From positions 1 through 41,015 of the forward strand of contig UQLR01000018.1 of the NCBI GenBank assembly GCA_900541975.1: a stretch of DNA of 41,015 bases, in the 5' to 3' direction. The notes beneath the pieces were generated by a model. That model saw nothing but the letters and a program-made list of their open reading frames with translations, had not been told where the DNA came from and ran no database searches. How positions within the stretch are numbered: the first letter of the stretch is position 1; the number at the start of each line of letters is the position of its first letter. Shown piece by piece: positions 1,891 to 26,998 of the stretch. Source of the DNA: an uncultured Oscillospiraceae bacterium (GTDB taxonomy: Bacteria > Bacillota > Clostridia > Oscillospirales > Acutalibacteraceae). The translations under genes and the position numbers were made by a program.

Positions 1891-2481
1891 TTGGGTTCCG
1901 AACAGGAAAAAGAAGCTCCCTTTTCCCGGAATGCTCCAAAATGGCGGTTGTTCTTAAAAATCAGCGACAGTCTGTATGTGCTCAGCAAGCAAAAGAACGG
2001 ACGGACGATTTACAGTCCTCTTGCAATTCACAGCTTTCAGTTTTTACGTCCGAAGAAGCTCACCGACGCCGAAAAGTTCAATATCCAGTACCCAAATCCG
2101 GCAATGCTCACGACAACAGCGGACAAGCTGCGGTACTACCGATATAAAAAATCCCTGCTCCAGCGGGAAGTCGCTGAATATGCAGGGATTAACGAGAGCA
2201 CCTATATTCATTATGAGAATCCGGAACACGACTACTACCCGATAGACAAGCTCAGCCGGATTGCGGAACTGCTGGAAGTGAAAATCACTGACCTGCTGGA
2301 CGAGTACAACCGATTTCTCTATGATGGACAGGACTGGCAGATACGGAAGATTCGTAAGAGCATGGGTTTGACACAGTACTAATTTGGAAAAGTGTACGGC
2401 GTGAGTGCCGGAGCAGTGAAACGGTGGGAAAGCGGAAAAGTGAGGGTGACAAAGGGGACGTGGGAGAGATTGAAATATTAG
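1891..2481 (+). pseudogene. Double-HTH (XRE-type) regulator interrupted by a TAA codon
   Basis: The frame is open from about 1891 (TTG, weak start) to a TAA at 2380-2382, then stays open to TAG at 2479-2481. From ATG 2104 the protein reads as an XRE helix-turn-helix (DKLRYYRYKKSLLQREVAEYAGINESTYIHYE) with a LSRIAELLEVKITDLLDEYN tail. After a linker a second HTH begins, RKIRKSMGLTQ, which is cut by the TAA and continues in frame as FGKVYGVSAGAVKRWESGKV. The second HTH is split in mid-helix by one stop, so this is a recent nonsense mutation, probably from GAA or CAA. The end overlaps the tail of the convergent NACHT gene by a few bases. Residues before 2104 are unassigned. DNA-binding regulator of a mobile element is inferred. 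Confidence 0.7.
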
Positions 2482-5400
2482 CTGTTTTCAGAGAAAAACT
2501 CTTTAATTTCTTTTAATGACCATGGCTGATCTTGCTCGTTATAGTATTGACTTTCAATATCTTTTAAAAGAATACTGCAAAAACACCGTATCTCGGAATC
2601 TTGCAAACTTTGTTCAAACAAACATTGTAGGAGTTCTTTTACTTGAAAATAATCATTTGAAGCAATCCCTTTTAATGCGGTAGATAAGCTATGATAAAGT
2701 CCAAAATCCTTCTTATCTTTAAAACCAGACTTGAATTCCAATTCAACTAACTTTTTAATCTGTGGTAATAAAGACGGACTATCAATTTCACAAATGGCCT
2801 CTGTTATAGTACAAATATTATTGCCTTCACTATAATCTGGAATAGACTGTTGCTTAGAGGCCAATTCATAATAAGTTTGCAGTCCGAACTCACTATTCAT
2901 TTTTATTAAAGTTGTTAGATAATTCGTCCTATCTGCTGACGATTCATTTTCAGAAATCAATCTGTTTTCTAAAACGGCATTTCGACTCTTATATAATGAA
3001 TCTGCAATAATTTTTAGCAAAACATCATCTGCTTGAGAAAGTATATCCTGATAGATAAAATCCTCACCCTTTAATTCTAAAAGGTATTCAAAAGCAGTCC
3101 TTTTGTCCCATTCTTTGCCTGATTCATGACAGACTTTTTGAGCTAATTCTAGCGCACCAAAAAGCTTCTTGGTCTTGCAGTATTTAATATGGGTACATGC
3201 AATTTGACCAACCAAATTTAAGTTTGCAATATTATGTGCAACTCTATTATTGATTGATTTTTCCGAAAGTTTATCAAGTATATACTTGGGAAAATCATTT
3301 GAAATGATAGTTTCTTCTGTAAAAAATGATGCTGGAACCATAAGCATATCCAATAATATGGATTCATTATAATCAAAATTAAAATAGGCGGAGAAAAAAG
3401 TCACATAAATTATATTCCAAGAGCAAGACCATCCTCCGTCAACACTATATTGTACTGCTGTATTGAAGTCAATATTTTTAATGCTCGTTTGACAATATTG
3501 ATATATAAATTCTTTTTGTCCTTCACTTACAAAAATAGCTTTATCTTCTTTGGACTCGCTTAATATATGATAAATACCATTAATCGAATAAAATTCCCAG
3601 TTTACATAATTTAAAAAAATTCGAGCAGTCCTATCTTTCAATTTATTGTGAGTAATCCCCCAGGCAAGTTCTTGCAAATCATGTCGGTACTGTGTAATTT
3701 CAAACGACTTTTCTTGCAATTCATCATATGTGATTTTGTCATTGCCGGATAAATTTATTAACTCATAAAGCAAGTTTTCAAATTCTTTTTTGCTAAACAA
3801 AGAGTTGAAATATTTTTGACGTCCTTCTTGTTCTAATTTTTTATAGTCAACAATTTTATGTCCTTCAATTTGAATGTCCTCTTTTTCATAAATCAATTTC
3901 TGATAATTCTTAAATTCCGATGACTCCATATCCATTCCGGAAACAAGAAATGAAAAAATCTCTTTATTGTGCAAATTGTTTTCTTTATATCTTTCTGAAA
4001 CAATATCCATATAATCGTGCAAGTCAAATTGATTCAGTAAAAATATTTTTTTATGATTATCTATATCTAAATCAATAATACGCATAACAGCTTTCTTTAT
4101 TGTATTTGTATTTTTAAAAAATTGCTGTAACGATTTTACGCACTCCCAATTATAGTTCTGAGAAAGAGACAACATACTACCAAAGACTAAATCAAATATA
4201 TCTTCAGGATTTTGCAAATAAACTGCTTCCAGTTTTATGCAGGCATCTGCCAATATCTCTTTTGCATGATAAAAACGATTATATTTATTGCTGCTGTAAA
4301 ACACAAATAACAATTTTATTGCTCTTATAGTGTAAAAGGCCTTTATTCCTTTTTCTAAAATAAAAGAGCAACTGATATCATGGTTTTTAAACGTTAAGTC
4401 TAAGTTAATGCCCCTAATAAAGTATTCTGCAAATTCATCTTGCAAATTTGCTTCCAAAAAATAGGTATATAAACCATAGCGAATCACTGCTTCGTTCGAT
4501 TCGCCTAAGCATTCATATAATTCTTGAGTAACTTCATTAGAATTTAACTTTAATTGTACCAGTGCAATTATAGCATCTTTCTTTTCATAAAAGCGGGTAC
4601 TATCATTTTTACAGCATGACAACAAAATCTTTTTGACATTTTCTTCTTGTCCAAAAAGATTTGTAAAGTTTTGTAGTAATTGAATTGCATTAGCCTGTGA
4701 ACGGAAATGTGTGGGATTCCTAATTTCGCACAATAAAAACATTAGAGTATTTTGGGTTTGCCCAAATCGAGCGAGGTCATTTTGATTGTTTCGACCCCAA
4801 GATATCCAAATGTTCTTTTCTTTACATTCATCAAAAATATTGTAGAACAGTTTCTCTCTGGTTGCTTCGTCTATCCGTGAAATTTCAAACTTGACTACAG
4901 AAGAGGGATCTGTTCTCTGAAGCCAGTCTAATAATTCTTGACCACTATATAATAAAGCTAAAAAGGATAGAACATTTTGCCAAGACTCTTTTATACGGGT
5001 TTTATCATTAGAATAGGTGATTAAGTTTTCAATAGTTGCAACTGGCTTATCAGCAAGATATTTAGCTGTTAAATACTCTCTGAAATTATTGTGTTCAAAA
5101 GACCACTTGCCTAACTCATCCTTTAACCAAATCCCAGAATATTTTAATAATTCTCTCTCTTCTGGTGTAGTTAACTGCTGGTACTCTAAACCTGTAATAC
5201 TAATCTTCTGTAAACATTGGAGCGAAAAAGAAATCTTTTGAAGAAGATTTAATAATTCAAATTCCATATCTTCTATATCTTTGGTATTTACATATTTGCT
5301 TTTGTCCCACTGAAATTTACTTTTAATTAAAAAATCCATAAGCTCTAGTCTGTTGGGTAGCTCCAAATCATTTTTATATAGCTCTAAAGTTTCAACGAGA

Positions 5401-6851
5401 TAAAACGGATTATGTAATAGTTCATTTAGCTCTTTTCTATTAACTGCATTCCAAAAATCAGAAGGAGAAAGTTTCATTTTTACTATATAACTATTTATGT
5501 CATCTGAAGATAAAGGGCATACACCATACTCTTTAAACCCATAAAATGTTCCACCTTTATTTGTATCTTCAAATTTATAAAAATTATTGCGGCAAGAAAT
5601 TAGTATACGCGTATCAGGATATGATTTCACAAAGGCATTTAGTTTTCTTGAAAAGAGAACTAAACTATTTAACTCAATTTCATCATACCCATCAAAAATA
5701 AGAAACAGCTTTTGTATGTCTAAGTCAGAATATTGTTTGGGAATTAGCTGACAAATATCTTCGTTTGTATAAGTGTCTAGCCTAATATATACGGGATAGT
5801 ACAGATATTTAGATTGAGAAAGCTGAAATGCTACACGCTTTAATTCTATTGATTTTCCACATCCTGCTTCTCCAAGTAATACAACATGTTTTACTTCTGT
5901 GCAAAGTTCGAATAAATTTTTCTTTAAACTGTTATCAAAATAAAGTTGAATACTCCTTTCTTGTATTAATGAGAAAAGGGCAACCTTTCGAGGAATATAA
6001 TTGGTTACATCAGAATAGTTCATCTTTTTATAAGTTTCAGTAACTACAGCCTTAGAAAAAGGGTAAAGTGAAGTCTTACGAAAACTATCATGATTAGCTT
6101 CAAAAGTAAAACGTTGTACAGCTTCAATTTTTTCTTTATTCAAACAAATAAGGTTAAATTGGTTATTAACATTCTTCCTTGCATAAAATATCGAACCAGC
6201 TTCTATCACCAGTCCACCACCAGCAAGAGGAATAATCTGATCTCCATGATAATGACCATGTAATATATAATAAGGGGTAGGGCAAAAAGAAGGTTCCAAT
6301 AATTTGATAGATTCCCTTATTACTGCCTCATCATTTCCTTTATTATCTTCGCTAAAGAGACTGTGGTGAAATACGAAAACATTATAATGTGATTTGTCTA
6401 TACAAGTCTTAATCTCTTCGTAATTGAGCTGACCAAAACGAAAATTTCCATTTTGAACTGAACTTGCATAGATAAAATTAACATTTTCTATTTGCTCACT
6501 ATAAGCTGATACTGTAGAATAATTTGTATGAAAATCACTATATTTCTGCGTAAAATTATCAAAATCAGTAAGACTGCTATTGCAAATATCGTGATTTCCT
6601 GGAACAAATCTAAATATGACATTTAGATCCGCAAATTTGTTTCTAATATGGTCAAATATTTGTTCTGCTTCATCAAATGATTCCGCACTTCCCATGTTAA
6701 TGATATCACCGCAAATGAGGATAATAATAATTTCCTTAATATCTAATTCAACACAAACAGCCTCATATGCTTTGTCGATAATATGGATTGCTTCATCTAT
6801 ATTAAAATCAATATTGTTAATATGAAAATCAGAAAACATTAAAATTTTCAT
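2478..6851 (-). CDS. Metallophosphoesterase-NACHT (STAND) NTPase, candidate anti-phage protein
   Basis: 1457 residues. The ATG at 6851 is chosen over the longer frame (to 6944) because GGAGG sits 5-6 bases before it and the protein then begins with the phosphoesterase strand MKILMFSDFH. Residues 1-~250: calcineurin-like metallophosphoesterase with D8-x-H10, G48-D49, GNHD (85-88), H162-H163 and HGHYH (198-202), a full metal-ligand set. Residues ~318-600: NACHT-type STAND NTPase with Walker A GEAGCGKS (327-334), Walker B LFLIFDGYDE (382-391), ILISCRN sensor (416-422), NPFYLVETL (481) and FEHNNFREYLTAKYLAD (585-601). Residues ~600-1457: long helical, repeat-like part with no recognised family, the expected sensor position. 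STAND proteins with N-terminal effectors commonly sense phage proteins and then fire the effector. Here the effector would be a phosphoesterase acting on nucleic acid or a nucleotide; that is inference. The gene is A+T-rich, monocistronic and intact inside a decayed mobile region. Confidence 0.9.
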   Translation of the reverse strand: MKILMFSDFHINNIDFNIDEAIHIIDKAYEAVCVELDIKEIIIILICGDIINMGSAESFDEAEQIFDHIRNKFADLNVIFRFVPGNHDICNSSLTDFDNFTQKYSDFHTNYSTVSAYSEQIENVNFIYASSVQNGNFRFGQLNYEEIKTCIDKSHYNVFVFHHSLFSEDNKGNDEAVIRESIKLLEPSFCPTPYYILHGHYHGDQIIPLAGGGLVIEAGSIFYARKNVNNQFNLICLNKEKIEAVQRFTFEANHDSFRKTSLYPFSKAVVTETYKKMNYSDVTNYIPRKVALFSLIQERSIQLYFDNSLKKNLFELCTEVKHVVLLGEAGCGKSIELKRVAFQLSQSKYLYYPVYIRLDTYTNEDICQLIPKQYSDLDIQKLFLIFDGYDEIELNSLVLFSRKLNAFVKSYPDTRILISCRNNFYKFEDTNKGGTFYGFKEYGVCPLSSDDINSYIVKMKLSPSDFWNAVNRKELNELLHNPFYLVETLELYKNDLELPNRLELMDFLIKSKFQWDKSKYVNTKDIEDMEFELLNLLQKISFSLQCLQKISITGLEYQQLTTPEERELLKYSGIWLKDELGKWSFEHNNFREYLTAKYLADKPVATIENLITYSNDKTRIKESWQNVLSFLALLYSGQELLDWLQRTDPSSVVKFEISRIDEATREKLFYNIFDECKEKNIWISWGRNNQNDLARFGQTQNTLMFLLCEIRNPTHFRSQANAIQLLQNFTNLFGQEENVKKILLSCCKNDSTRFYEKKDAIIALVQLKLNSNEVTQELYECLGESNEAVIRYGLYTYFLEANLQDEFAEYFIRGINLDLTFKNHDISCSFILEKGIKAFYTIRAIKLLFVFYSSNKYNRFYHAKEILADACIKLEAVYLQNPEDIFDLVFGSMLSLSQNYNWECVKSLQQFFKNTNTIKKAVMRIIDLDIDNHKKIFLLNQFDLHDYMDIVSERYKENNLHNKEIFSFLVSGMDMESSEFKNYQKLIYEKEDIQIEGHKIVDYKKLEQEGRQKYFNSLFSKKEFENLLYELINLSGNDKITYDELQEKSFEITQYRHDLQELAWGITHNKLKDRTARIFLNYVNWEFYSINGIYHILSESKEDKAIFVSEGQKEFIYQYCQTSIKNIDFNTAVQYSVDGGWSCSWNIIYVTFFSAYFNFDYNESILLDMLMVPASFFTEETIISNDFPKYILDKLSEKSINNRVAHNIANLNLVGQIACTHIKYCKTKKLFGALELAQKVCHESGKEWDKRTAFEYLLELKGEDFIYQDILSQADDVLLKIIADSLYKSRNAVLENRLISENESSADRTNYLTTLIKMNSEFGLQTYYELASKQQSIPDYSEGNNICTITEAICEIDSPSLLPQIKKLVELEFKSGFKDKKDFGLYHSLSTALKGIASNDYFQVKELLQCLFEQSLQDSEIRCFCSILLKDIESQYYNEQDQPWSLKEIKEFFSENS

Positions 6852-6902
6852 GGCAACCTCCGGATACAATTTGTTAATTTTGATTATACCATGGAGGTGA
6901 AC

Positions 6903-6941
6903 GAAAGAAAAGACGGTCAAGCCTAACCAGCCTGACCGTCT
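6903..6941 (-). terminator. Intrinsic terminator
   Basis: Arms AGACGGTCAAGC (6911-6922) and GCCTGACCGTCT (6930-6941) pair with one mismatch. Read on the minus strand the hairpin is followed by TTTTCTTTC. It lies just after the stop of the 54-residue gene and before the NACHT gene, so it separates the two minus-strand transcription units. Confidence 0.7.
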
Positions 6942-6953
6942 CATTTTATGTAC

Positions 6954-7118
6954 CTACTTGCCGTTCTTCAAATCTTCCTGAACGGCTTTCAGTAGCGCCA
7001 GCTTCTGCTCCTTGGGGCATGGCAGTTTATTGAGATACTGCTCTACCGCCTCAGCATGAACAGAAGCTATTCTTTTTTGCAGTTCGCGCCAGCCCTGTTC
7101 CGTCTTAGGGTAGTGCAT
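6954..7118 (-). CDS. Small hypothetical protein (54 aa)
   Basis: ATG at 7118 preceded by GGAGGTAATC, a strong RBS at good spacing. The protein starts MHYPKTEQGWRELQKRI and ends AVQEDLKNGK; it is soluble, helical and charged, with a single Cys-Pro. No family recognised. It sits downstream of the rep genes on the same strand and is closed by the hairpin at 6911-6941, which supports a real short gene. Probably a plasmid/IME accessory gene. Confidence 0.55.
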   Translation of the reverse strand: MHYPKTEQGWRELQKRIASVHAEAVEQYLNKLPCPKEQKLALLKAVQEDLKNGK

Positions 7119-7189: not shown

Positions 7190-7396
7190 TTACTTTTTGG
7201 CAGTACGCTTGTAACGTTCAAAATCCTCTAGAACCTCGTTTTGAATTTCGGAAAGCTTGGAGATATATTTTAACATAAAGTTCCAACGTTCCATTGACAT
7301 GAATCCTGTGCATTCAAGAGTGTCGATCAAATTGTTTGCCGACTGCATTTCTCGAAACAGCATATCTACTAAATCTTCATGTGTTACATTATTCAT
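7190..7396 (-). CDS. Small hypothetical protein (68 aa) coupled to rep
   Basis: The ATG at 7396 overlaps the last codons of the rep frame (…ATGAATAATG), with AAAGGAGAG upstream, so translation is probably coupled. The product begins MNNVTHEDLVDMLFREMQ and is predicted to be all helical (RWNFMLKYISKLSEIQNEVLEDFERYK). No family recognised. Position directly after a rolling-circle rep gene suggests a role in element maintenance or copy control, but nothing in the protein proves it. Confidence 0.6.
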   Translation of the reverse strand: MNNVTHEDLVDMLFREMQSANNLIDTLECTGFMSMERWNFMLKYISKLSEIQNEVLEDFERYKRTAKK

Positions 7397-8237
7397 GGCG
7401 CTTCTCTCCTTTTAAAATGTATTGTTCGTAAGTGATGGAGTTCAAAATTTTCCCGCTACCCTGTTCATCTCGAATGGTTGTCGTATGGGAATAGCAAGGT
7501 GGTGTTTCGCCAACGATTGCCTTTAACTTCTCGTATGTCATCGTGACAGGAACAGGTTTCTGAATCCCTCTGGAACAGCTATACAATCTGAAATGTTCTG
7601 GATAAAAAGCAACGCGAGTTCCTTTTTCATATGCTTTTGAAACAGTATCAGCAGGAGTGGTACTCTCTTTCAAAAACTTCGGACAAAAGTACGCTCCAAA
7701 ATTTTCGACAAAGGGTAACTTTTCAATCTATGCACCACCGTGTTCCCACATTTGTTTGAGTTTCTCGATTGGAACAAATAAACCTTGTTTGTCCATACGT
7801 TTCATCAGTACATGAAGATGGTAGCTGCCGTTACCCTGCGGTTCTATGATACGGATATACTCGCAAGATGGATAGGAGTACCGAAACCTGCTCCAAAATC
7901 TTTTAAAGTCCAGATTGACCTGCTTATAGTCCCTCATGACATTGAAATAGGTTAGTGTCAAGAACTTCTCAGAACAATGCCCTGTAAAGTTTAGATTGAT
8001 AATTCTTCTCAGCTCATGACAGGACTTTTTAAATCTCTTTTCTGTATCAATCGGACTTGCACGAGCTTTGCTCTCGATGTACTCTCCGGTTTCTAAATTG
8101 ACATAACCCTGCCTGCTCACCTTGCGATAACGTGCAATACCAGTACAACGTTTTTCAACCGTAATGGCTTCTACAATGTGATTGGTATGGGACACTTTTG
8201 TTAAATGCTCATTTTCAATTTGTTTCTTCTCTTCCAT
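7389..8237 (-). pseudogene. Rolling-circle (HUH-type) replication initiator with internal TAG
   Basis: The gene starts at ATG 8237 behind ATAGGAGGTAATCTG. Residues 1-169 contain the HUH endonuclease motifs FLTLTYF and YHLHVLMKR, typical of Rep proteins of small rolling-circle plasmids and mobilisable elements. At 7728-7730 the frame hits TAG in EHGGA-*-IEKLPFVENFGAYF; the frame then stays open for 112 more codons to 7389. In relatives I know, the position after GGA is usually tryptophan, so TGG to TAG is the simplest explanation. The lost part includes the GAYF segment where the catalytic Tyr region would be expected, so the short product should not nick DNA. The 276-base gap upstream to 8513 is A+T-rich and is the natural place for promoters or an origin, but I cannot identify a nick site. 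Confidence 0.8.
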
Positions 8238-9347: not shown

Positions 9348-10001
9348 TTAGTTCTTTTGAACCTTACTTTCCCGCTGAATTTCTTTATGACCACACTTAC
9401 TGCACTGATAGGTAACATCATAGAAATATTCTGTTGCTGGAACGTCTACCTCATATTCATCATAATCAGGTGTTGCATTTATATAAGTTTTGCCATTTTT
9501 TCGTGTATGATAGATTTTGCGTGTCTCTTTTATGAATGTATTCCTTGTGCCCACTAATTCTGAATGAACTCTTTGCATGGTCTTCCTTCTTTGACAAGCA
9601 GGACACACGCTACCCCTTGTCAGCAGCCATGGTAAGAAAAGTAATACGCCGATTCCTGCAATAATCAATCCCACTATAAAGTCAATACTAAACATAAAAA
9701 TTATCCCTATAATGATAGGACCAAGTCCAAAACAGGCACAAAGACAACCGATTTTATCCCGATTGTCGTTTCTTAGTTTTCGTTCATCTCTTGTTAGTTG
9801 CTCTTGATTCAGTTGTCTCAAGTATTTTTTACAGAGTGTTCCCTCACGGATTTCTTTGTTACAGTTCCGGCAATGCTTTTTACCATCTGAATTTAGTTGT
9901 AGTTGTTCTCTGTTATCTACATGCTTAAAACATTTCTTCCCGCAATTTGGGCAAAAATTGCTCCCTTCCTGAATCACAGCACTACATTTAGGGCATATCA
10001 T
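9348..10001 (-). CDS. Zinc-ribbon membrane protein
   Basis: 217 residues, ATG at 10001 after AAAGGTGAGGAA. The N-terminus is a zinc ribbon (CPKC at 3-6, CPNC at 18-21), followed by a second Cys pair (HCRNC). A polar linker leads to two hydrophobic segments (around CLCACFGLGPIIIGIIFMF and IVGLIIAGIGVLLFLPWLL) and then CPAC and a final CSKCG pair near the C-terminus. The protein is probably membrane-anchored, with metal-binding ribbons facing the cytosol. Function unknown. Divergent from the XRE regulator at 10150; the 150-base gap between them probably holds both promoters. Confidence 0.75.
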   Translation of the reverse strand: MICPKCSAVIQEGSNFCPNCGKKCFKHVDNREQLQLNSDGKKHCRNCNKEIREGTLCKKYLRQLNQEQLTRDERKLRNDNRDKIGCLCACFGLGPIIIGIIFMFSIDFIVGLIIAGIGVLLFLPWLLTRGSVCPACQRRKTMQRVHSELVGTRNTFIKETRKIYHTRKNGKTYINATPDYDEYEVDVPATEYFYDVTYQCSKCGHKEIQRESKVQKN

Positions 10002-10149
10002 TTCCTCACCTTTTCTATATCTTGAATGATTTTGAGCATACTTTATATAGAACTATTTTAATCCTTGTTTTTCGTTTTGTCAATGATTATCTCGTTTTTA
10101 AGAGTGGAAAACTCGTTTCTCCTTTAGAATGAAAGGGGAGTTGATATTT

Positions 10150-10518
10150 ATGCCTTTTTGCGATACATTACGCAATTTAATAGATGAACGAGGACTTACA
10201 CAAAAACAACTGGCACAGGCCTTGGAAATTCCTGTGTCTACCCTTGGCGGATATGTGCAAGGAACAAGTGAGCCGGATTTTGAGACATTGAAGTTGTTTG
10301 CAAACTATTTTAATGTGTCTGCCGATTACCTGTTAAATCTCAAAATCGGAAACACTCAATCTCATTTAGAAAATGAGCTTTTGCGGATTTTCCGGTCATT
10401 GAGCACAGAACAACAGGAGCTATATTTAGAGCAGGGCAAAGCCTTTATCAGAATCAATGCGAAAGAAGATGTAAAATCATCAAAATCGACTTTACAAGGA
10501 AAAAATAACGAAGGATAA
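10150..10518 (+). CDS. XRE-family transcriptional regulator
   Basis: 122 residues. Start ATG 10150 (MPFCDTLRN) is preceded by AAAGGGGAG; the frame opens 21 bases earlier but with no RBS of its own. Residues ~6-60 form a Cro/C1-type helix-turn-helix: LIDERGLTQKQLAQALEIPVSTLGGYVQGTSEPDFETLKLFANYFNVSADYLL. The C-terminal half is helical (LLRIFRSLSTEQQELYLEQG). Single-domain phage-like repressor, placed between the zinc-ribbon gene and the serine recombinase, so probably the regulator of this mobile element. Confidence 0.9.
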   Translation: MPFCDTLRNLIDERGLTQKQLAQALEIPVSTLGGYVQGTSEPDFETLKLFANYFNVSADYLLNLKIGNTQSHLENELLRIFRSLSTEQQELYLEQGKAFIRINAKEDVKSSKSTLQGKNNEG

Positions 10519-10524
10519 TGAAAA

Positions 10525-10556
10525 ACCGTCTGCGGAAAACGTAGACGGTCTTTTTA
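10525..10556 (+). terminator. Intrinsic terminator after XRE gene
   Basis: ACCGTCTGCG (10525-10534) pairs with CGTAGACGGT (10540-10549) with one wobble/mismatch, loop GAAAA, followed by CTTTTTATT. Confidence 0.85.
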
Positions 10557-10668
10557 TTGAGAAAATGTTTTGTTTTTTAGGTGTATTCGGTTTATAATAA
10601 GGTTGTAAGGAAAAGCCGCTATGTGATGAATTAAAAAGTCACATAACTTAATGTGGAGGGTTAAGCTA

Positions 10669-11886
10669 ATGAAAGGACAGGATAACTGAAAATACGCTAT
10701 CTATTCGAGAAAATCAAAATTTACCGGCAAAGGCGAAAGCATTGAAAACCAAATTGAGCTTTGCCGTCAACATATCAAGCTCCACCATGACAATGTAACG
10801 GAAGAGGACATTCTCATTTTTGAAGACGAGGGATTCTCCGGTGGAAACGTCAATCGTCCGCAGTTTCAGGCCATGATGAAGCAAATCCGGGCCAATCAGA
10901 TTCAGGCTGTAGTCTGCTACCGCCTAGACCGCATCAGCCGTAATGTGGGAGATTTTGCCAAGCTCAAGGACGAATTTGATTACTACAATGTGGAGTTCAC
11001 TTCAATCCGAGATGATTTTGACACTACTTCCCCAAGCGGTAGAGCCATGATGATGGTTTCCGTCTTTGCACAGTTGGAACGGGAAACCACCGCAGAACGT
11101 ATCCGGGATAATATGCACGAGCTTGCCAAGTCTGGACGTTGGTTAGGCGGCACAACACCGACCGGCTATAAAAGTACGCAGATTGTTGGGAGCGTTACAG
11201 TGGACGGAAAAGAGCGAAAAGCCTATAAATTGGACATCATCAAAGAAGAAGCGGAAATTATCAGGCTGATTTTCTCGAAATTTATAGAAACCAATTCGCT
11301 TACCAAAACAGATACTCACTTGTTGCAGAACAATGTCACCACAAAAAACGGGAAGAATTTTACCCGGTTTTCCATTCGCTCCATTCTGCAAAATCCGGTT
11401 TATATGATAGCCGACCAGAACGCATGGGTGTATTTCGACAGCTTAGGCGTAGAGATTTACGCTGAACACTCGGAATTTGACGGCAAGCATGGAACTATGG
11501 CTTACAACAAAACCATTCAAAAATCCGGCAAGTCCAATCAAATGCGGGATATGGACGAATGGATTGTTGCTGTGGGAAAGCACAAGGGCTTGATCGCCGG
11601 AGCAGATTGGGTGAAAGTGCAGGATATGCTGAATCAAAACCGTTCCAAGTCCTACCGCAAGCCCAAGAGCAATGTGGCGTTGTTGTCCGGCCTGCTGTAC
11701 TGTGGGAACTGTGGCAGCTTTATGCGTCCCAAGCTCAGCCAGCGGACAAACGCACAGGGTGAGAAGATTTATAGCTATCTCTGTGAAACAAAAGAACGCA
11801 GCCGTTGTCAGCTCTGCAACAGCAAGAATCCCAACGGCAACGAGCTTGACAAGTCGAAACGGCAACTATTCGGAAATTCCGAATAG
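10669..11886 (+). pseudogene. Large serine recombinase with TGA at codon 7 and lost 3' end
   Basis: ATG 10669 follows GGAGGGTTAAGCTA. The frame reads MKGQDN, then TGA (10687-10689), then continues open as [25 protein letters not shown] for 398 more codons. The catalytic serine of the resolvase domain lies in YSRKS right after the stop. Later parts are the [16 protein letters not shown] and [15 protein letters not shown] segments, the Recombinase domain ([11 protein letters not shown]) and the zinc ribbon ([15 protein letters not shown] ... [11 protein letters not shown]). After NGNELDK the normal sequence stops abruptly, and 12 foreign codons follow to TAG at 11884-11886. The next usable ATG (10873) is past the catalytic Ser. 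The gene therefore looks inactive at both ends unless the TGA is read through. Confidence 0.85.
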
Positions 11887-12600
11887 TTCAAACGGAGGGT
11901 TCGAGACAGGTGAGTCGTGAAGTCATCCATTATAATTTACAGATGATAATTGCCGTGGGCTTTAAGGTGAACAATGATTGGGCAGTTCGTTTTCGTAAGT
12001 GGTCAGGACAAATTGTTAAAGATTATACAATTCAAGGTTGGACGATGGATAAGGAACGTCTGAAGAAAGGACATATGTTTACAGATGAATATTTTGAGCG
12101 GCAGTTACAGAATATTCGTGAGATACGCCTTTCTGAACGCAAGTTTTATCAAAAAGTTACTGACCTTTATGCTACCGCTTTTGACTATGATAAAGATGCT
12201 AAAACTACCAGACGATTTTTTTCAGACGGTGCAGAATAAAATGCATTGGGCCGTTCACAGGCATACGGCAGCAGAACTTATTGTTGAACGAGCTAATGCA
12301 GAAAAAGAACATATGGGATTGACCGCTTGGGAAGCGGCTCCAAATGGAAAAATTATAAAAGCAGAATTGCAAGCCGAACGTCATATTCCGATGAGTATGG
12401 AAGATTGGGCAAAGCGGTTAGATGGTTTTCTGGAATTTAACGGAAACGAGATACTTACAGGTCCAGGTAAGATTAGTGCAGAACAGGCAAAGCTTCATGC
12501 AGAAACAGAGTTCGAGAAATATCGCATTATTCAAGATAGATTGTTCGTATCAGACTATGACAGGTACCTGATTGAATTAGAGGAAAAGGCAAAGAAGTAG
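11850..12600 (+). pseudogene. RhuM-family gene, 5' truncated and frameshifted
   Basis: From about 11850 one frame reads [16 protein letters not shown], then SRQVSREVIHYNLQMIIAVGFKVNN and QFRKW-like VRFRKWSGQIVKDYTIQGWTMDKERLK, the core of RhuM (virulence/Fic-associated phage-like) proteins. It ends at 12239 after a T7 run (12216-12222). A different frame carries the rest: QTVQNKMHWAVHRHTAAELIVERANAEKEHMGLTAWE, then a C-terminal tail to 12600. Removing one T restores a single frame. The N-terminal ~100 residues (usual DNA-binding-like start) are missing, and the fragment begins exactly where the recombinase sequence stops, so a deletion joined the two genes. Family function is unclear; members are common in defence islands and prophages. 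Confidence 0.8.
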
Positions 12601-12657
12601 GCAATGGAAAATTTGAAGTTGACGGAGGTATTAAGGTGAGAAAACGAATTAAATACT

Positions 12658-12734
12658 CGGTGCAGTTTTAACTGACAGCAGATTGTATCGAGGTTAATTT
12701 AGGCAAATTGCTTATGTTGTCAGGGACTGCACCG
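12658..12734. repeat. Long imperfect inverted repeat
   Basis: CGGTGCAGT...ACTGACA (12658-12677) faces TGTCAG...ACTGCACCG (12718-12734), about 9 + 6-7 paired bases with a small internal loop around a 40-base centre. Upstream is an orphan RBS (GACGGAGGTATTAAGGTG) and a short frame starting GTG 12636 that stops at TAA inside the left arm. Not followed by a T tract, so not a plain terminator. It lies 42 bases before the methyltransferase start; it could be an attenuator, a terminator remnant or the end of a small element. Confidence 0.45.
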
Positions 12735-12775
12735 AATTATAAAATTTATCATTTTATTTGAGAGGAAGCAGTTTT

Positions 12776-13534
12776 ATGAATGAAGAATATTTAAGAAAGA
12801 TATGGAAACAGGAAGAAGAAATAGCACATATTCACGGTTGGGATTTTTCCCATATTCATGGAAGGTACGAAGTAGAAAATGATTTGCCTTGGAATTATGA
12901 GGAAATAGTCAGAGGGTATTTATCCAATGATATGCAAATGATGGATTACGATACAGGTGGAGGCGAGTTTTTATTATCGTTAAACCATCCATATGAAAAG
13001 ACATTTGCTACGGAAGGATATTCTCCAAATGTTGAAATTTGTAAAAGTAAGCTATTACCTCTTGGCGTTGGTTTTAAAGAGTGTCAGAATCCTAATAAAA
13101 TACCATTTGAAGATAACGTGTTTGACATTATGATTAATAGGCATGGAGATTTTGCACCGAAAGAGATATATAGATTATTACAAAAAAATGGTGTGTTCAT
13201 TACTGAACAAGTCGGAGGAGACAACGAAAGAGATTTAGTTGAAATGGTGCTGCCTGGTTTAGAGAAACCTTTTCCGGATTTAAACTTGAAAATACAACAG
13301 AAAAAGTTTGAGGAGGCAGGTTTTAAAATACTGAGGGCTGAAGAAGCATATAGACCTATTTATTTCTATGATGTTGGTGCATTTGTATGGTTTGCACATA
13401 TTATAGAATGGGAGTTTCCAAATTTTTTTGTTGATAAGTGTTTTAAACAGTTATTAAAGATGCAAGAAGACATTGATAAAAATGGGTTTGTTAAGGGTAC
13501 AATACATAGATATTTGATTGTAGCAACAAAGTAA
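12776..13534 (+). CDS. Class I SAM-dependent methyltransferase
   Basis: 252 residues from ATG 12776 after GAGAGGAAGCAG. SAM-binding motif I is the DYDTGGGEFLLSL segment, followed by an acidic/E position in FATEGYSPNVEIC, then IPFEDNVFDIMINRHGDF (motif IV-like) and EIYRLLQKNGVFITEQVGG (post-motif). This layout is the UbiE/SmtA-like Methyltransf_11 type acting on small molecules, not a DNA methylase. The C-terminal part, with KFEEAGFKILRAEEAYRPIYFYDVGAFVWF, matches methyltransferases often carried on clostridial mobile elements. Substrate unknown. A 9-bp hairpin without T tract follows at 13541-13564. Confidence 0.85.
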   Translation: MNEEYLRKIWKQEEEIAHIHGWDFSHIHGRYEVENDLPWNYEEIVRGYLSNDMQMMDYDTGGGEFLLSLNHPYEKTFATEGYSPNVEICKSKLLPLGVGFKECQNPNKIPFEDNVFDIMINRHGDFAPKEIYRLLQKNGVFITEQVGGDNERDLVEMVLPGLEKPFPDLNLKIQQKKFEEAGFKILRAEEAYRPIYFYDVGAFVWFAHIIEWEFPNFFVDKCFKQLLKMQEDIDKNGFVKGTIHRYLIVATK

Positions 13535-13540
13535 TAGGTT

Positions 13541-13564
13541 GTGGCAGGATGTATATTCTGCCAC
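13541..13564 (+). terminator. Weak terminator-like hairpin
   Basis: GTGGCAGGA and TTCTGCCAC pair over 9 bases with a 6-base loop right after the methyltransferase stop. There is no T run after it, so termination is uncertain. Confidence 0.4.
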
Positions 13565-13634
13565 GATTACTAAAATATAAGAATCTGAAAATCTCAGTTT
13601 CATTGACATATTCCCACAAACGGCAAAAGTGTAA

Positions 13635-13745
13635 AAAAGTCTGATGATGTATTCCCGTACTCGGAAAAATATCAAAGAAATCCAGCGTATCCAGACGAGC
13701 CATGTGGAGACGGTAGTTCTTTTGCGTAGGGAAAAATCGACATAG
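13635..13745 (+). pseudogene. Second RumA/RlmD-like C-terminal fragment
   Basis: Open from just after a TAA (13632-13634) to TAG 13743-13745. It ends IQRIQTSHVETVVLLRREKST, containing the RumA/RlmD C-terminal motif SHVETVVLL; the rest upstream (MMYSRTRKNIKE) is not clearly homologous. It shares 16 of 17 bases (CATGT-G/T-GAGACGGTAGT, 13701-13717) with the fragment at 1479-1495. Differences fall on third codon positions, as in two diverged copies of the same coding motif. Probably a scar of a methyltransferase gene used as an insertion site or carried on an element. Confidence 0.45.
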
Positions 13746-13905
13746 GAGAAATTCTATATTTCCCGCCTGGCGAGAGTGTGGTATTAACGTTGCAACTTTT
13801 ATTGAAGAAGAATAAAAAATGGATTTCATTTTATGAATAGCGACAGAAACGGCAACAGTTTGTTTTGGTAAATTATAAAAAATTTAGATGAAAAGTGGTG
13901 ACTGC

Positions 13906-14496
13906 ATGTACTTTGCGTTTGAGGACAGAAGAAGCATCCGAAAATACAAAGAACAGGATGTTCCAAAAGATATAATTGAAAAAATTCTTCAAGCCGGCAT
14001 ATTGGCTCCGTCTTCTAAAAACAGACAACCCTGGCGCTTTATTGTAATGACAGGCGCAACAAAAGCAGATATGGTTTCTGTAATGCGCTGTGGAATAGAA
14101 CGGGAAAAACAGGCGCCATTACTCCCAGACAGTAGCAAATATATCAGTGGAGCAGAATATACGGCCAAAATTATGCAACAGGCTCCGGTTACGATCTTTA
14201 TTGTTAATCCACTGGGAGCAGACCTGCAAAAACAGCTTACACCCGAAGAACGGATTTATGAAATCTGTAATGCCCAGTCGGTTGGGGCGGCAATTGAAAA
14301 TATGGCGCTTGCGGCAACCGGGCTCGGCCTTGGCAGTCTGTGGATATGCGACACCTATTTTGCTTATCCGGAACTAAAAGAATGGCTTGGGATCGATGGG
14401 GAGATTTTTGCGGCGTTAATCGTTGGATATGCCGATGAAGAGCCTGCGGCCAGACCAAGAAAAACTTTGGAAGAAGTAACCGAGTGGCGCGGGTAA
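13906..14496 (+). CDS. Nitroreductase family protein
   Basis: 196 residues. ATG 13906 (MYFAFEDRRSIRKYK) is favoured, with AGTGGTGA as RBS; an in-frame ATG at 13888 would add six residues. Features of FMN-dependent NAD(P)H nitroreductases: RRSIRKY near the N-terminus, LQAGILAPSSKNRQPWRFIV (flavin contact, with SSKNRQPW), and SVGAAIENMALAATGLGLGSLWI plus a C-terminal ALIVGYADEEP...PRKTLEEV. The enzyme reduces nitro groups, quinones or flavins; the physiological substrate is unknown. No partner gene is adjacent; it starts the region right of the island. Confidence 0.93.
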   Translation: MYFAFEDRRSIRKYKEQDVPKDIIEKILQAGILAPSSKNRQPWRFIVMTGATKADMVSVMRCGIEREKQAPLLPDSSKYISGAEYTAKIMQQAPVTIFIVNPLGADLQKQLTPEERIYEICNAQSVGAAIENMALAATGLGLGSLWICDTYFAYPELKEWLGIDGEIFAALIVGYADEEPAARPRKTLEEVTEWRG

Positions 14497-15068
14497 CCGA
14501 AAAATTCCAGAATTAAATTTGCCCGGAAAAAATCGGGTGCAGCCGTGTAATATGGAAATTGCTTGTTAAAGAATTATATTCTGCCAGTAAGGAAAAATGA
14601 TAGGAAGGTACAGTCTGAATGCTTAAAGGTTACATAAGACCCGCTAAAGAAAAAAGTAAAGTCAATGTGTGAACGATTGTGAAATGACATAATCAAATTG
14701 AAAGATTAGCCGCTGTTCTGAGAACTTTTTGATGGTAAAGGCGGATTACCGGATCAATTATATCTCCATGAAATTGCGTTTTATTATTTAATGAAATCTC
14801 GGGGAACACAAGAACTTGACAATAATAGCCACACGTTTGACGTAAAAGAAGAAATGCATTGAATCCCATTGAAGAGTGGGAACGGCATAAGGCATTTCCA
14901 TCCCGGATGAAAGACGATTTAAAGAAACCGCACGGTTTGTGCTTTTGAAAACTAGTATGAATTGTGTTTTATTTCTCTATGAAATATGAGAAATATTGAC
15001 TAAAGGTCACAGAAGATATATAATGCCTTTGGAAAAGGACAAATTTTGCAAAATGAAGGACAGCAGAC
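14497..15068. other. Gene-free stretch with coding remnant
   Basis: No intact gene on either strand. On the plus strand 14722-14862 is open without a start and reads ELFDGKGGLPDQLYLHEIAF and on to DVKEEMH; its composition looks like protein code, but I do not recognise the family. Flanking sequence breaks into several frames, so this is most likely decayed coding DNA. The last ~100 bases hold the leader of the TetR gene. Confidence 0.5.
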
Positions 15069-22289: not shown

Positions 22290-22580
22290 AAATAAAAAAA
22301 GCTTTTGTCCCAAAACAGGGACAAAAGCTTATACTTCTGCGGTACCACCCAAATTGACGATAAATCGCCCGCCTTTACGTACTAACATACGCTCCTTACT
22401 GATAACGGCAAAGGAATTTGCCCGTCAGCGCCTACTGCGGAAAATCCGTTTCGGGCTGCCCTCGCAAGTCCATTCAAAAAAACTGCGCTGCCGTGCTCGC
22501 ACCAGCCGACGGCTCTCTGAAAGCGTTTTGGTCTTTTTTACTACTCTTGCTCAACGGTTTTACTATATAAAATTGTTTTT
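22290..22580 (-). promoter_or_regulatory. T-box leader (tRNA-Trp sensing) of the trp operon
   Basis: Read on the minus strand, the conserved T-box GGTGGTACCGC lies at 22349-22339, the segment that pairs with the uncharged tRNA acceptor end. Upstream is a long stem I region (from about 22565) with the sequence GAATGGACTTGC; the UGG at 22472-22470, in a GAA-UGG-A context, is the expected specifier codon for tRNA-Trp. Downstream is a strong terminator (22330-22294). The layout matches the T-box family: with uncharged tRNA-Trp the antiterminator forms and trpE is transcribed. Only tandem elements are absent; one T-box is seen. Confidence 0.94.
22294..22330 (-). terminator. T-box regulated terminator
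   Basis: AAGCTTTTGTCCC and GGGACAAAAGCTT pair perfectly over 13 bases around TGTTTT (minus strand), followed by TTTTTT. It lies just after the T-box sequence, so it is the conditional terminator. Confidence 0.95.
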
Positions 22581-22709: not shown

Positions 22710-22800
22710 TTTATTGCAGAAATGATACAAATTTTACGCAAAGGAAAATTTGGCAAGCACAAAAACGGCAGGGGCTTCCACCCCGCAAAAGGAGAAAAAT

Positions 22801-25800
22801 ATGCAGTATACAAAAAAATGGATTGGTTTTTGCCTGGCGCTTATTATGCTGGCTGGCGTCAGTTTTTCAACAGAGCTTACGGCCGGCGCGCAGGAAAACG
22901 CCCCCGGGCTTTCTGTTGCAGATGAAGTGCTGGACAGCGCATATACGCTGGTGGTAGAGGACGATGCTTCTGAAAGCGGGCTTTTACGCGCCGGCTTTGA
23001 AAACAAATACGGGCAGCAGCTGGATCCTGCAAAGGATGCGCCGGTGAAAACAGACGGTGCACAAACACTGCCGGCACAGTTTGACCTGCGCGAGCAAAAC
23101 AGGGTAAGCGCAGTACGTGACCAGGGTACAGAGGGCCAGTGCTGGGCCTTTGCATGCGACGCGGCACTGGAATCGAATATTCTTTCAAACAGTGAACTGC
23201 AAACCGATTTAACAGATGTTTTAGGGGAAAGTGCGTTAACCTTTGCACCTGCGCATACCTCCTGGTTTGCATTTACAGAGCCTGCAGACATGCAAAGCGG
23301 TACCTGCGGCGATTACATTTATGCTCCTCAAAAAGGTTCTGACGGGGGCTTTTCCTATTGGTTTGCCTCAGCTATAGCGGGCGGAAGCGGATTGCAGCTG
23401 GAGGTCAACACGCCCTATGAAAACTGGCAGTACGGTTTTTCAGAAGCAGAACGGGATGTTTCCTATTACCATCTGGATACGTTTAATCTGCTCGAACGCA
23501 TTTCCGGAGAGGAACGCAATATTGTAAAAGGCTGGGTTTATGAGGACGGCGCGGTAAACGTATCGTATTATTCTGAGTCGTCGCTTTATTACAACACGGG
23601 CGATCCGCAAGCGCAAACAGCCTATTATCAGAATACAAGAGACGACATTAACCATTCGGTTGCAATTGTAGGATGGGACGACGGTTTTTCAAAAGAAAAT
23701 TTTAATCCGGATTGCATGCCGCCCGGGGACGGCGCCTGGCTTATTAAAAACAGCTGGGGAGAAGGGATGTTTGACCAGGGTTATTTCTGGCTGTCTTATT
23801 ATGACCCCTCTTTGCAGGATTTTTCGCAGTTCCAGGCCGAAACAGCAGACAGTTGGGATTACAATTACCAATATGACGGCGTTGGTGGGAACAGTCTGCT
23901 GGCAGTCGAAGAAGCGGCCAACATTTTTACGGCTCCAAGGGACCAGTTGTTAAATCAGGTGGGATTCTGGACAGCTGAAAATGAGGTTGACTACCAGCTT
24001 TCCATTTATCTTCTTAACGATGGTTATCAAACGCCGCGCGAAGGGCAGCGTCTTCTTTTGCAAAGCGGCAATATAGACCTGCCCGGGTATCACACGGTAG
24101 ATTTAAAGCAGCCGCTGGCTGTTTCACAGGGGCAGCGCTTCAGCGTGGTGCTTTCCCTTAAAAACGCTGCCGGAGAGAATGCATTAATGACCATGGAAGG
24201 CGAATTTGGCGACAACAGATATGTTTTTTCCAGCAGGGAAGGGGAAAGTTTTATCTATGTCCAGTCCACCACCGGGATTCCATACTGGCAGGACCTGTAT
24301 GCGCTTTCCGGCTATGGAAACGTATGTATAAAGGCCATGGCGAAGGAGGCGGACGAACAGGTAGATAAGGCCGGTTTGGCACAGCTGCTCCAAACAGCCA
24401 AAAACATTAAAACGGACAATTTGCCGCAGGATATTAAAGAACAGCTTGCAAGACAGCTTGTCTTGACGGAAAATGTGTTGCGCAACGAAAGCGTGCCACG
24501 TTATATGGTGGAAAACGCAAAAAAAATGCTGCAAAGCGTGTTTGAAAGTATAGACGCCATAGACCTGTCTATTTCTTCAGCAAACGATTTTGCGGCTTTG
24601 GCGGCGGCTGTACAGACGCTGAATTTCCGTGCGCGGAACGTGTATCTGACGGACGATATCGTGTTTAACACGCCGGAGATGTTTACATACGACGAAAACG
24701 GGAATATCCTTTCGGCAAAAAGCGGCGCGCAGAAAATTGCGGTGCTTGGAGCAGATAGAGCCTTTTGCGCCAATTTTGACGGGCGGGGTCATACAATTTC
24801 CGGCTTTTATACAGAAGGCTCCAGCCAGGCCGGCATTTTTTCGGAATTACAAGATGTAACCGTGAAAAACTTAACGGTAAAAGACAGTTTGATCATCGGT
24901 AGCGGTGCCTGCGGCGGGATTGCAGGCATATTGTGGGGGGATTCTTCCATTGAAAACTGTCATGTGGAAAATGTGACGGTCCGCGCTGTTTCGGGAGAAG
25001 TCGATTTTGCCATAAATACCGGCGGTCTGGCAGGCGCTGTTTTTGCACCCGGGACGATATACGGCTGCTCTGTTAAAAATGCAAATATTCAGGGCAACGA
25101 AAGCGTAGGAGGATTTTCCGGAAGTGTGGATACAGCCAGCGTGCAGAATTGTACCATACAAGACAGCCTGATTGCAGGGAGCAATTATGTGGGGCTTTGG
25201 TCGGGCTCTCCGACAGCGGACGAACCTGGTAATTCCTTGGTATGGGTAAAAACCGTTGGGGAAGGAAAGCTTTCCATTACGCTGGACACGCAGCGGCGGG
25301 AAGCGTATGTACAAAATCTTTCCAATCAGATACTGCTGGAGCTGACCTCCCGGCAGGCGGATGTAACGTATGATAATGAAAGGGAACGCTATGTCTTCTC
25401 CATACCCAAAAGGAGTGTTATCCTGAACCCGGTTTTTGAAGAGCATTCTTTTGAAAGTGCAGAAATTGCCGCCACCTGTGACAGCGACGCCTGTACGCTT
25501 TATACCTGCAAAAACTGTGGTTATCAGTACAGGGAAGAAAAACCGTATACGGCGCTTGTGCACATATGGGAGCCGTGGCAGATCGTACGGGAGGCTACCC
25601 TGCAGGATGAAGGGCTGAAAACCAGAGTTTGCAGCGACTGTGGGGAAGTACAGGAAAAGACATTGCCGGTCGTTGCATATATCATGGGTGATACAGACGG
25701 CGACAACGAGGTAACTACGAAGGATGTGCTCCTTTTACAAAAGTACCTGGCCAACCTGGCGCAGCTGGAAGGCGACCGGCTTATGGCCGCGGATATAGAC

Positions 25801-26805
25801 AGCAGCGGGCGAGTGAATATACAGGACGTGCTGTACATACAGCAATATTTGGCGCATATGCTTAATAGCCTGCAGGAACTGCCCTCCATTTATATGAAAA
25901 AGGAAAACTGGGCTTGTGTAAATGACGGCCGGGCCAAAAAGGCAGACGTGTTTTTTGTGACGCCAACAGTATATATGGGAAGAGACGGCGGGATGAACAT
26001 GTCTTTGCAGGACGAAAAAACAAAAGAAAGCTTTTTAGGCGCTATCAATATGGAGCGTGGAATTTACGCCGAAGACTGCCGCTTCTTTGCGCCGTATTAC
26101 AGGCAGGCGTCTATCAAAGCGTATGAGATAAACTACAGCGACGCGCAACCTTATCTGGATATTGCCTATAAGGATGTAAAAGAAGCATTTGACTTCTATA
26201 TGGAAAATTATAACGATGGCAGGCCAGTGGTTCTTGCAGGCTTTTCTCAGGGCGCAGATATGATACTGCGCCTGACAAAGGATTATTATAACAGCGGGGG
26301 CGCCTACGGTGATATATTGGTAGCTTCTTATGTTATTGGGTGGCGTGTAACGCAGGAGGACCTGGAGGAGGCTCCCCGCATGTCTTTGGCGTATAGCGCA
26401 GAGGATATTGGATCGGTTGTTTCGTTTAATACAGAAGATCCGTCCGTTACACAATCGGTCATTGTGCCGGATGACGTTTACAGTTATTCCATCAACCCGC
26501 TTTCCTGGAGTACAGACCCGCAGCCCGTGTCCAGGGAGCAGAACAAAGGGGCCTGTTTTACCGATTACAGCGGGGCGGTCACAAAGGAAATCCCTGCGTT
26601 TACAGGCGCGTATATCGACCCGGTACGCGGAACGCTGAAGGTCACGGACGTAGACCCGCAGGAATATCTACCGGGACTGGATATTTTTGAAAGCGGCGTG
26701 TACCATTTGTATGATTACCAGTTCTTTTATCGTAACTTACAGGAAAATGTCGGGCAGCGCGTGGATAATTTCATTGCAATTCACAGCAGCGATGCAGTGG
26801 GCTGA
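22801..26805 (+). CDS. Secreted papain-like protease - GLUG - dockerin - DUF3089 hydrolase fusion
   Basis: 1334 residues. ATG 22801 follows AAAGGAGAAAAAT and starts a signal peptide (MQYTKKWIGF, hydrophobic core to about residue 30). Residues ~88-340: C1A cysteine protease with Cys114 in GQCWAFA, His285 in NHSVAIVGW and Asn317 in WLIKNSWG. Residues ~345-530: beta-rich domain. Residues ~600-830: beta-helix-like GLUG-type repeats (GGIAGILWGDSSIENCHV and similar). Residues ~880-955: two C-x2-C motifs (CKNCGYQY, CSDCGEV). Residues ~961-1024: type I dockerin with two Ca-binding repeats (GDTDGDNEVTTKDVLLLQ and ADIDSSGRVNIQDVLYIQQ). Residues ~1029-1334: DUF3089 alpha/beta hydrolase with nucleophile Ser1149 in GFSQG and FFAPYYRQAS. 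The protein is secreted and perhaps docked to a cohesin scaffold. Two different hydrolases on either side of an internal dockerin is unusual. Confidence 0.9.
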   Translation: MQYTKKWIGFCLALIMLAGVSFSTELTAGAQENAPGLSVADEVLDSAYTLVVEDDASESGLLRAGFENKYGQQLDPAKDAPVKTDGAQTLPAQFDLREQNRVSAVRDQGTEGQCWAFACDAALESNILSNSELQTDLTDVLGESALTFAPAHTSWFAFTEPADMQSGTCGDYIYAPQKGSDGGFSYWFASAIAGGSGLQLEVNTPYENWQYGFSEAERDVSYYHLDTFNLLERISGEERNIVKGWVYEDGAVNVSYYSESSLYYNTGDPQAQTAYYQNTRDDINHSVAIVGWDDGFSKENFNPDCMPPGDGAWLIKNSWGEGMFDQGYFWLSYYDPSLQDFSQFQAETADSWDYNYQYDGVGGNSLLAVEEAANIFTAPRDQLLNQVGFWTAENEVDYQLSIYLLNDGYQTPREGQRLLLQSGNIDLPGYHTVDLKQPLAVSQGQRFSVVLSLKNAAGENALMTMEGEFGDNRYVFSSREGESFIYVQSTTGIPYWQDLYALSGYGNVCIKAMAKEADEQVDKAGLAQLLQTAKNIKTDNLPQDIKEQLARQLVLTENVLRNESVPRYMVENAKKMLQSVFESIDAIDLSISSANDFAALAAAVQTLNFRARNVYLTDDIVFNTPEMFTYDENGNILSAKSGAQKIAVLGADRAFCANFDGRGHTISGFYTEGSSQAGIFSELQDVTVKNLTVKDSLIIGSGACGGIAGILWGDSSIENCHVENVTVRAVSGEVDFAINTGGLAGAVFAPGTIYGCSVKNANIQGNESVGGFSGSVDTASVQNCTIQDSLIAGSNYVGLWSGSPTADEPGNSLVWVKTVGEGKLSITLDTQRREAYVQNLSNQILLELTSRQADVTYDNERERYVFSIPKRSVILNPVFEEHSFESAEIAATCDSDACTLYTCKNCGYQYREEKPYTALVHIWEPWQIVREATLQDEGLKTRVCSDCGEVQEKTLPVVAYIMGDTDGDNEVTTKDVLLLQKYLANLAQLEGDRLMAADIDSSGRVNIQDVLYIQQYLAHMLNSLQELPSIYMKKENWACVNDGRAKKADVFFVTPTVYMGRDGGMNMSLQDEKTKESFLGAINMERGIYAEDCRFFAPYYRQASIKAYEINYSDAQPYLDIAYKDVKEAFDFYMENYNDGRPVVLAGFSQGADMILRLTKDYYNSGGAYGDILVASYVIGWRVTQEDLEEAPRMSLAYSAEDIGSVVSFNTEDPSVTQSVIVPDDVYSYSINPLSWSTDPQPVSREQNKGACFTDYSGAVTKEIPAFTGAYIDPVRGTLKVTDVDPQEYLPGLDIFESGVYHLYDYQFFYRNLQENVGQRVDNFIAIHSSDAVG

Positions 26806-26879: not shown

Positions 26880-26998
26880 GTACAGAGTAGAATCTTGTGC
26901 GTGGCGCCCAGTGGCGTGCAGTGCCGTCTGAACGGGGAGTTGTCAGATGGACGAAACGGGTGGAAATCCCTGCGGTTCAAGGTTCGCATCCCGCTGTT
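26880..26998 (+). promoter_or_regulatory. Tetrahydrofolate (THF) riboswitch aptamer
   Basis: Between the promoter and folT lies a structured leader with the conserved blocks of the THF class: AGAGTAGA (26884-26891), GCGT, TGAACGGGGAGTTGTC, GGACGAAAC and finally GTTCGCATCC near 26985. The outer strands can close a helix. This class binds reduced folates and is normally found before folT or folate genes, as here. The terminator at 27047-27086 would turn the gene off when folate is bound (inference from the family). Confidence 0.85.

Follow-up and report, generated by a model that had tools for sequence, protein, structure and literature searches.

A metallophosphoesterase-NACHT protein of an uncultured Oscillospiraceae bacterium as a candidate NLR-like anti-phage sensor

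We describe a protein of 1457 residues that joins a metallophosphoesterase (MPE), a NACHT module and a helical solenoid in one polypeptide, and that is encoded in a window of 41,015 nucleotides, the whole stretch of DNA that we analysed. It is highly likely that this is a defence protein and, more specifically, it is probably an NLR-like anti-phage sensor that consists of a single protein and has a phosphoesterase as its effector. The architecture has already been proven in a distant relative, DS-8, a one-protein metallophosphatase-NACHT found with DefensePredictor in 2026 that blocks phages and loses defence upon mutation of either the metallophosphatase or the NACHT site (PMC13092281). Judging from sequence comparison, the window protein is a new branch of this architecture with an unrelated sensor region. 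Hence, the preliminary description of this DNA, which presented the protein as an undescribed defence STAND, has been overtaken on that point, and its statement that no STAND protein with a phosphoesterase effector had been characterised is out of date since DS-8.

The gene and its domains

The gene lies at positions 2478-6851 of the minus strand as one intact open reading frame, with an ATG at 6851 and a stop at 2480-2478. The reading frame, the domain searches and the predicted fold all confirmed the order of parts given in the preliminary description, namely an MPE, then a NACHT and then a helical region. On the same strand, the MPE effector domain covers residues 1-265 (6057-6851), the NACHT STAND module of the NBD-HD-WHD type covers residues 276-640 (4932-6026), and the helical solenoid, which is the proposed sensor, covers residues 641-1457 (2481-4931). 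The dN/dS ratio between this gene and its copy in the related locus L001 is 0.22. The gene is real, intact and under selection, as had been suggested from its survival within a decayed mobile island.

The preliminary description had proposed a Pfam search of the N-terminal and NACHT parts. This gave a match to PF00149 of 31.5 bits (cut-off 21.5), and one to PF05729, the NACHT family, of 26.3 bits against a cut-off of 26.7; a precomputed PF05729 assignment is given for many homologues, including P0002, which is 100% identical to the window protein. Besides, the window protein shows the Walker A motif GEAGCGKS (residues 327-334; 5850-5873, minus strand) and a Walker B region (residues 383-391; 5679-5705, minus strand), within a predicted fold of the NLR type. 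K333 of the former and D387, D390 and E391 of the latter are invariant in 47 of 47 fusion proteins. The C-terminal region of about 815 residues is predicted to be an all-helical solenoid, and the whole supports the earlier view of a STAND/NACHT protein of the defence type, enzymatic at the N-terminus and helical at the C-terminus. Among the Pfam matches reported for the window protein there was no NCH or SNaCT domain, which are the C-terminal domains of some bNACHT clades. Animal NLRs (NLRC4, NLRP3 and NOD2) have leucine-rich repeats, whereas the window protein has a helical solenoid, and they carry a CARD or PYD where it has an enzymatic effector. Regarding the structure matches, autoinhibited NLRC4 ranked top for one model and active NLRC4 for the other; we set this ranking aside as evidence on the activation state, since AlphaFold picks one conformation.

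Upstream of the start codon, a TATAAT at 6888-6883 and a GGAGG at 6861-6857 (6857-6888, minus strand), read from the sequence, are a lead to possible expression signals of the gene's own; the promoter scan listed no promoter using this TATAAT as its -10 element. An intrinsic-terminator-like hairpin of 14 pairs followed by a T-rich tail (6910-6942, minus strand) comes after the upstream reading frames, and given this hairpin the gene may be transcribed alone. Two such hairpins were found in the region, compared with 2.5 expected from shuffles.

The metallophosphoesterase domain

The two-metal site of calcineurin-like MPEs is built from the motifs D-x-H, GD, GNHD, H and GHxH, and all of them are present in the window protein (D8, H10, D49, N86, H87, H162, H200 and H202). 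We aligned 47 MPE-NACHT fusion proteins (alignment A1) and found D8, G48-D49, G85-N86-H87-D88, H162, H198 and H202 to be invariant, while H10 is kept in 46 of the 47 and H200 in 44, with an aspartate in the remaining three; this substitution counts against the phosphoesterase-effector explanation. In a profile alignment to DS-8-like proteins, H200 and H202 fall on the invariant histidines of the GHxH motif and H198 falls on a phenylalanine, so the last metal motif is G199-H200-x-H202. From the ligands previously listed, D8, H10, D49, N86, H87, H162 and H200 therefore stand, and H198 gives way to H202.

Among the matches listed, the closest folds to the predicted MPE are those of GpdQ, Rv0805 and SMPDL3A, which are phosphodiesterases or nucleotide hydrolases. 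GpdQ and Rv0805, class III phosphodiesterases, share 15-18% identity with the window MPE and are stand-alone enzymes. Because these are the nearest folds, we favour a phosphodiester-containing nucleotide, small or cyclic, over bulk nucleic acid as the substrate.

Homologues and exchange of the N-terminal domain

Residues 1-700 were used as the query and gave 128 homologues; the counts given here come from the best 120, which were listed. The MPE-NACHT fusion is present in 47 of them, 45 near full length and two (P0029 and P0089) shorter, and several homologues of this fusion clade come from named or binned Clostridia. In the remaining 73 the alignment starts between residues 211 and 321, i.e. 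they have the body without the MPE. Their replacement N-termini are joined near residue 276, beside the start of the NACHT module, and 69 could be grouped, leaving out P0043, P0091, P0110 and P0116, which may be cut short. In 47 of the 69 the N-terminus is one domain that we read as helical, other domains read as helical account for 5, 3, 2 and 1, and the rest are HNH-like (5), trypsin-like (3, in two groups), DUF4062-like (2) and SIR2-like (1). A Pfam scan of seven representatives assigned no family to the helical-read N-termini. In that scan SIR2_2 was clear in P0118 (1e-21), while HNH_2 in P0045 (0.0038), Trypsin_2 in P0117 (0.00097) and DUF4062 in P0115 (0.0024) were below their own cut-offs; the trypsin-like label of P0120 is a precomputed PF13365 that was absent from our own scan.

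We then placed the N-termini on a quick tree of the 120 NACHT bodies, which gave long-branch warnings. On this tree, 12 changes are required for the ten N-terminal kinds, versus a mean of 53.8 after shuffling, and the presence or absence of the MPE needs 6 changes, 4 of them forced by strongly supported branches.

The phosphoesterase also occurs in trans. In L022 (Sphingobacterium, 10001-14718) and L040 (a Flavobacteriales MAG, 10001-14664), an MPE gene overlaps or abuts a NACHT gene of 1186-1196 aa that belongs to the same body family as the window protein. Taken as one profile, these two NACHT proteins match the window clade over the NACHT (E 1.3e-33) and the C-terminal region (E 4.2e-17). 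L012 together with 22 NACHT proteins, a set whose named members are Bacteroidota, matches it with E values of 2.5e-44 for the NACHT and 1e-47 for the C-terminus. L012 (Acidiluteibacter) has MPE and NACHT within one protein, for which we found no NCBIfam model match at E 0.001.

Related MPE domains were seen in other settings as well. P0147, P0149 and P0154-P0157 are six proteins with a length of about 885 aa. Five of them carry a precomputed PF13589, which we take to be a GHKL-type ATPase, in place of a NACHT; P0157 has the MPE alone. In L011 (9971-13722) and L013 (7799-10797), a stand-alone MPE (615 and 573 aa, respectively) is followed by a gene that we read as MazG-like and by one that we read as a radical SAM protein; the latter matches PADLOC viperin models (7.1e-12 and 1.2e-7, respectively). 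An extra gene in L011 matches PDC-M51B and VakA and was read as nucleotide-kinase-like. A nucleotide cluster of MPE and viperin is possible at these two loci.

Comparison with known antiphage systems

DS-8 and the window protein are alike in being single proteins with an N-terminal metallophosphatase followed by a NACHT. Homology between DS-8 and residues 1-601 of the window protein is distant and colinear (hhalign E 4.5e-28, 15% identity), and it holds for each domain taken apart (MPE E 1e-20, NACHT E 6e-14) when DS-8-like proteins are compared with the window clade. In contrast, the C-terminal region of DS-8 has no detectable homology to that of the window clade (hhalign probability 0.2%). 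For this comparison we used 19 DS-8-like proteins and, from among them, checked P0166 and P0146 against the DS-8 model NF053861. This model has 994 positions versus the 1457 aa of the window protein and a cut-off of 790 bits, and the window protein gave no match to it at E 0.1. We also scanned 34 clade members, namely P0171, P0174 and 32 of the 47 proteins aligned in A1, and 20 of the 34 match the DS-8 model at E <=0.01 (best 3.1e-21). The window NACHT is nearer to the mainly Bacteroidota NACHT set than to the DS-8-like NACHTs.

Two NCBIfam models of NACHT antiphage proteins, HyoA (NF058534) and EruA (NF058535), match the NACHT and the following region of the window protein with E values of 1.9e-12 and 5.8e-7. 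Their scores are 45.6 and 28 bits, below the cut-offs of 1200 and 1000, and the models are matched by 34 and 32 of the 34 clade members scanned, respectively. The aligned positions put the NACHT near the N-terminus of HyoA and EruA, which would leave no room for a preceding MPE. We found no literature on HyoA or EruA as antiphage proteins; an E. coli regulator also called EruA is unrelated and shares only the name. The MPE itself matches, over its N-terminal part, the DS-9A phosphoesterase model (NF053862) with an E value of 3.4e-7 in the window protein (29.5 bits; cut-off 420), and this model is matched in all 34 clade members scanned. DS-9A belongs to a two-gene system made of MPE plus HAD-phosphatase (PMC13092281), and no HAD family was found among the neighbours of our gene that were scanned, which were part of the ORFs of the window. 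The most fitting description of the window protein is a phosphoesterase, related to those of DS-8 and DS-9, carried by a large NACHT chassis that is broadly of the HyoA/EruA type.

Genomic loci and defence neighbours

Scanning GTDB contigs, we located 48 loci, and in ten of them (L001-L010) the match extends over all or most of the body. Eight of these carry the MPE, L004 has an HNH-like N-terminus and L009 has neither. The gene of L001 is 91.6% identical to ours. Beyond window positions 2477-6989 and a short HTH stretch the two contigs are not alike, which suggests that the gene moves as one unit.

The preliminary description had proposed looking for homologues in other defence islands, and we found type I restriction genes beside three of the ten loci and McrBC beside a fourth. 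In L002 and L003, hsdR, hsdS and hsdM lie upstream, with 30 bp between hsdM and the gene, and in L009, the relative without MPE, hsdM and hsdS are directly upstream. McrBC is about 0.7 kb upstream in L006, AAA_21 plus RloB adjoin the gene in L010, and a DUF4062 gene adjoins it in L008. In the other four (L001, L004, L005 and L007) no neighbour was counted as defence; this includes a DUF3990 protein in L001 that matches the PADLOC candidate PDC-M13 and an AAA_15/AAA_21 ATPase in L004. The ten genes have 83 flank proteins at a distance of up to 5 kb, and type I restriction dominated the PADLOC tally of these; a null expectation was calculated for HsdS alone. HsdS stands beside three of the ten loci (L002, L003 and L009), compared with about 0.05 expected, or about 0.07 when adding the gene's own length. 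For this expectation, 39 HsdS matches in 10 genomes of 1.8-6.1 Mb were merged by eye to about 21 places, one of them (G006) below the cut-off, and places x 10 kb / genome size was summed by hand for a distance of 5 kb. L002 and L003 are one element, their DNA being 81-82% identical along some 12 kb, so the three cases amount to about two independent events. Other MPE loci were considered as a neutral flank control and dropped, as they mostly hold proteins of about 1000-2000 aa that are apparently DS-8-like and not housekeeping MPEs.

No close relative was found in phage, plasmid or viral records. A tblastn search of phage records gave one unannotated 5.3-kb 'Bacteriophage sp.' record (query 58-1450, 27% identity), the plasmid search gave six records matching the NACHT region only, with 22-26% identity, and the search of viral contigs gave one weak NACHT match. 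The window protein had no match in PHROGs at E 0.01, and PADLOC returned for it only a weak match to PDC-S10 (E 5e-4). Altogether, the varied N-termini, the MPE in trans and the restriction neighbours are consistent with an NLR-like body that senses phages and on which the effector can be exchanged.

Proposed function and alternative explanations

By analogy with STAND proteins, the helical solenoid would recognise either a component of the phage or a change that the phage induces. Nucleotide exchange in the NACHT would follow, and this module would open and oligomerise, which would gather the phosphoesterases and turn them on; these would cleave a phosphodiester-containing nucleotide, small or cyclic, and the infected cell would undergo growth arrest or death. 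The DS-8 precedent, the exchange of effectors, the defence neighbours and an Mrr-type endonuclease ORF in the window support the anti-phage explanation. Points against it are that the window protein itself gave no DS-8 model match, that no neighbour was counted as defence in four of the ten loci, and that our searches found no close relative in phage, plasmid or viral records and no phage-protection assay for the clade in open-licence papers. Earlier predictions had already assigned an effector role to calcineurin-like phosphoesterases, in STAND and TRADD-N proteins (PMC8195603) and in other conflict systems (PMC7159879).

One could argue that, within the same defence architecture, the phosphoesterase is an Mre11/SbcD-style nuclease that cuts DNA or RNA after oligomerisation of the NACHT. 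Many STAND effectors are nucleases, the nearest PDB chains by sequence alone are Mre11/SbcD nucleases (weakly, E 0.009-0.11), the SbcD model is matched by 8 of the 34 clade members scanned, and the split MPE of L040 matches the PADLOC model 'Effector', described as an endonuclease (1.4e-23). The best folds listed speak against this option, with GpdQ, Rv0805 and SMPDL3A ahead and no Mre11 among the 50 structure matches listed, beyond which an Mre11 likeness may lie, and we hold it to be possible and rather unlikely. The folds of Rv0805 and SMPDL3A would also suit a non-toxic enzyme that removes a nucleotide messenger made by phage or host, or else a protein phosphatase or other phosphatase. The DS-8 authors suggest cyclic-nucleotide degradation (PMC13092281), which points the same way; the HNH-like, SIR2-like and trypsin-like domains found at the same position suggest destructive effectors instead and make a non-toxic role improbable.

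Further from our proposal, the protein could be a STAND protein that regulates something other than defence, for instance transcription or metabolism, and its phosphoesterase could be a metabolic enzyme. Regulators are known among STAND proteins, and we found no phage-protection assay for the window protein or its clade in the open-licence literature. This explanation is very unlikely in view of the repeated effector exchange on the tree, the restriction neighbours above expectation, the antiphage NACHT models matched across the clade, and the 91.6% identical gene in L001 amid mostly different flanks. As for an assembly or frameshift artefact that fused two genes, which the preliminary description had named as grounds for refutation, the same fusion in 47 of the 120 listed homologues and the dN/dS of 0.22 reduce its probability to almost nothing.

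The anti-phage sensor with a phosphoesterase effector thus stays our preferred explanation. A broader and more tentative idea, which we consider doubtful, is that such proteins form a separate, widespread class of NLR-like immunity, in which one sensor-NACHT chassis had a phosphoesterase plugged in several times, in cis or as a neighbour gene, destroying a specific nucleotide. If true, this effector chemistry would differ from what STAND proteins are known to use, namely nucleases, NADases, proteases and pores. The clade supplies many natural homologues for the question, left by DS-8, as to what a STAND-linked phosphoesterase cleaves (PMC13092281), and it offers the same body with better-understood kinds of effector, together with a two-gene Bacteroidota version. 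Comparing relatives with a shared body and a different effector would part sensing from killing and bring the substrate question within reach of direct tests.

Surroundings of the gene in the window

The Xre-type HTH ORF at 1891-2382 faces the 3' end of the MPE-NACHT gene and looks broken: L001 has, on the same side, a 74% identical HTH stretch (14735-15001) in a longer frame. A restriction endonuclease ORF of the Mrr_cat type (581-1333; 3.4e-9, Pfam) lies 1.1 kb from the end of the gene and is adjoined by a serine-recombinase fragment (44-559). On the other side, a rolling-circle replication initiator (7389-8237) looks split in two frames, with REP_ORF2-G2P at 3.3e-12 on 7728-8237; we read 7389-7673 as its other part. 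Positions 10873-12600 hold a serine recombinase without its N-terminal part (Resolvase positions 55-145) and then a split gene of the RhuM family (frames 11910-12239 and 12085-12600).

Further along, an ordinary chromosomal flank is marked by a T-box leader (22314-22563), which precedes an anthranilate-synthase gene, and by a THF riboswitch (26881-26998). Finally, positions 22750-26805 encode a 1351-aa protein with papain-family protease, lectin-like, GLUG, dockerin and DUF3089 domains.
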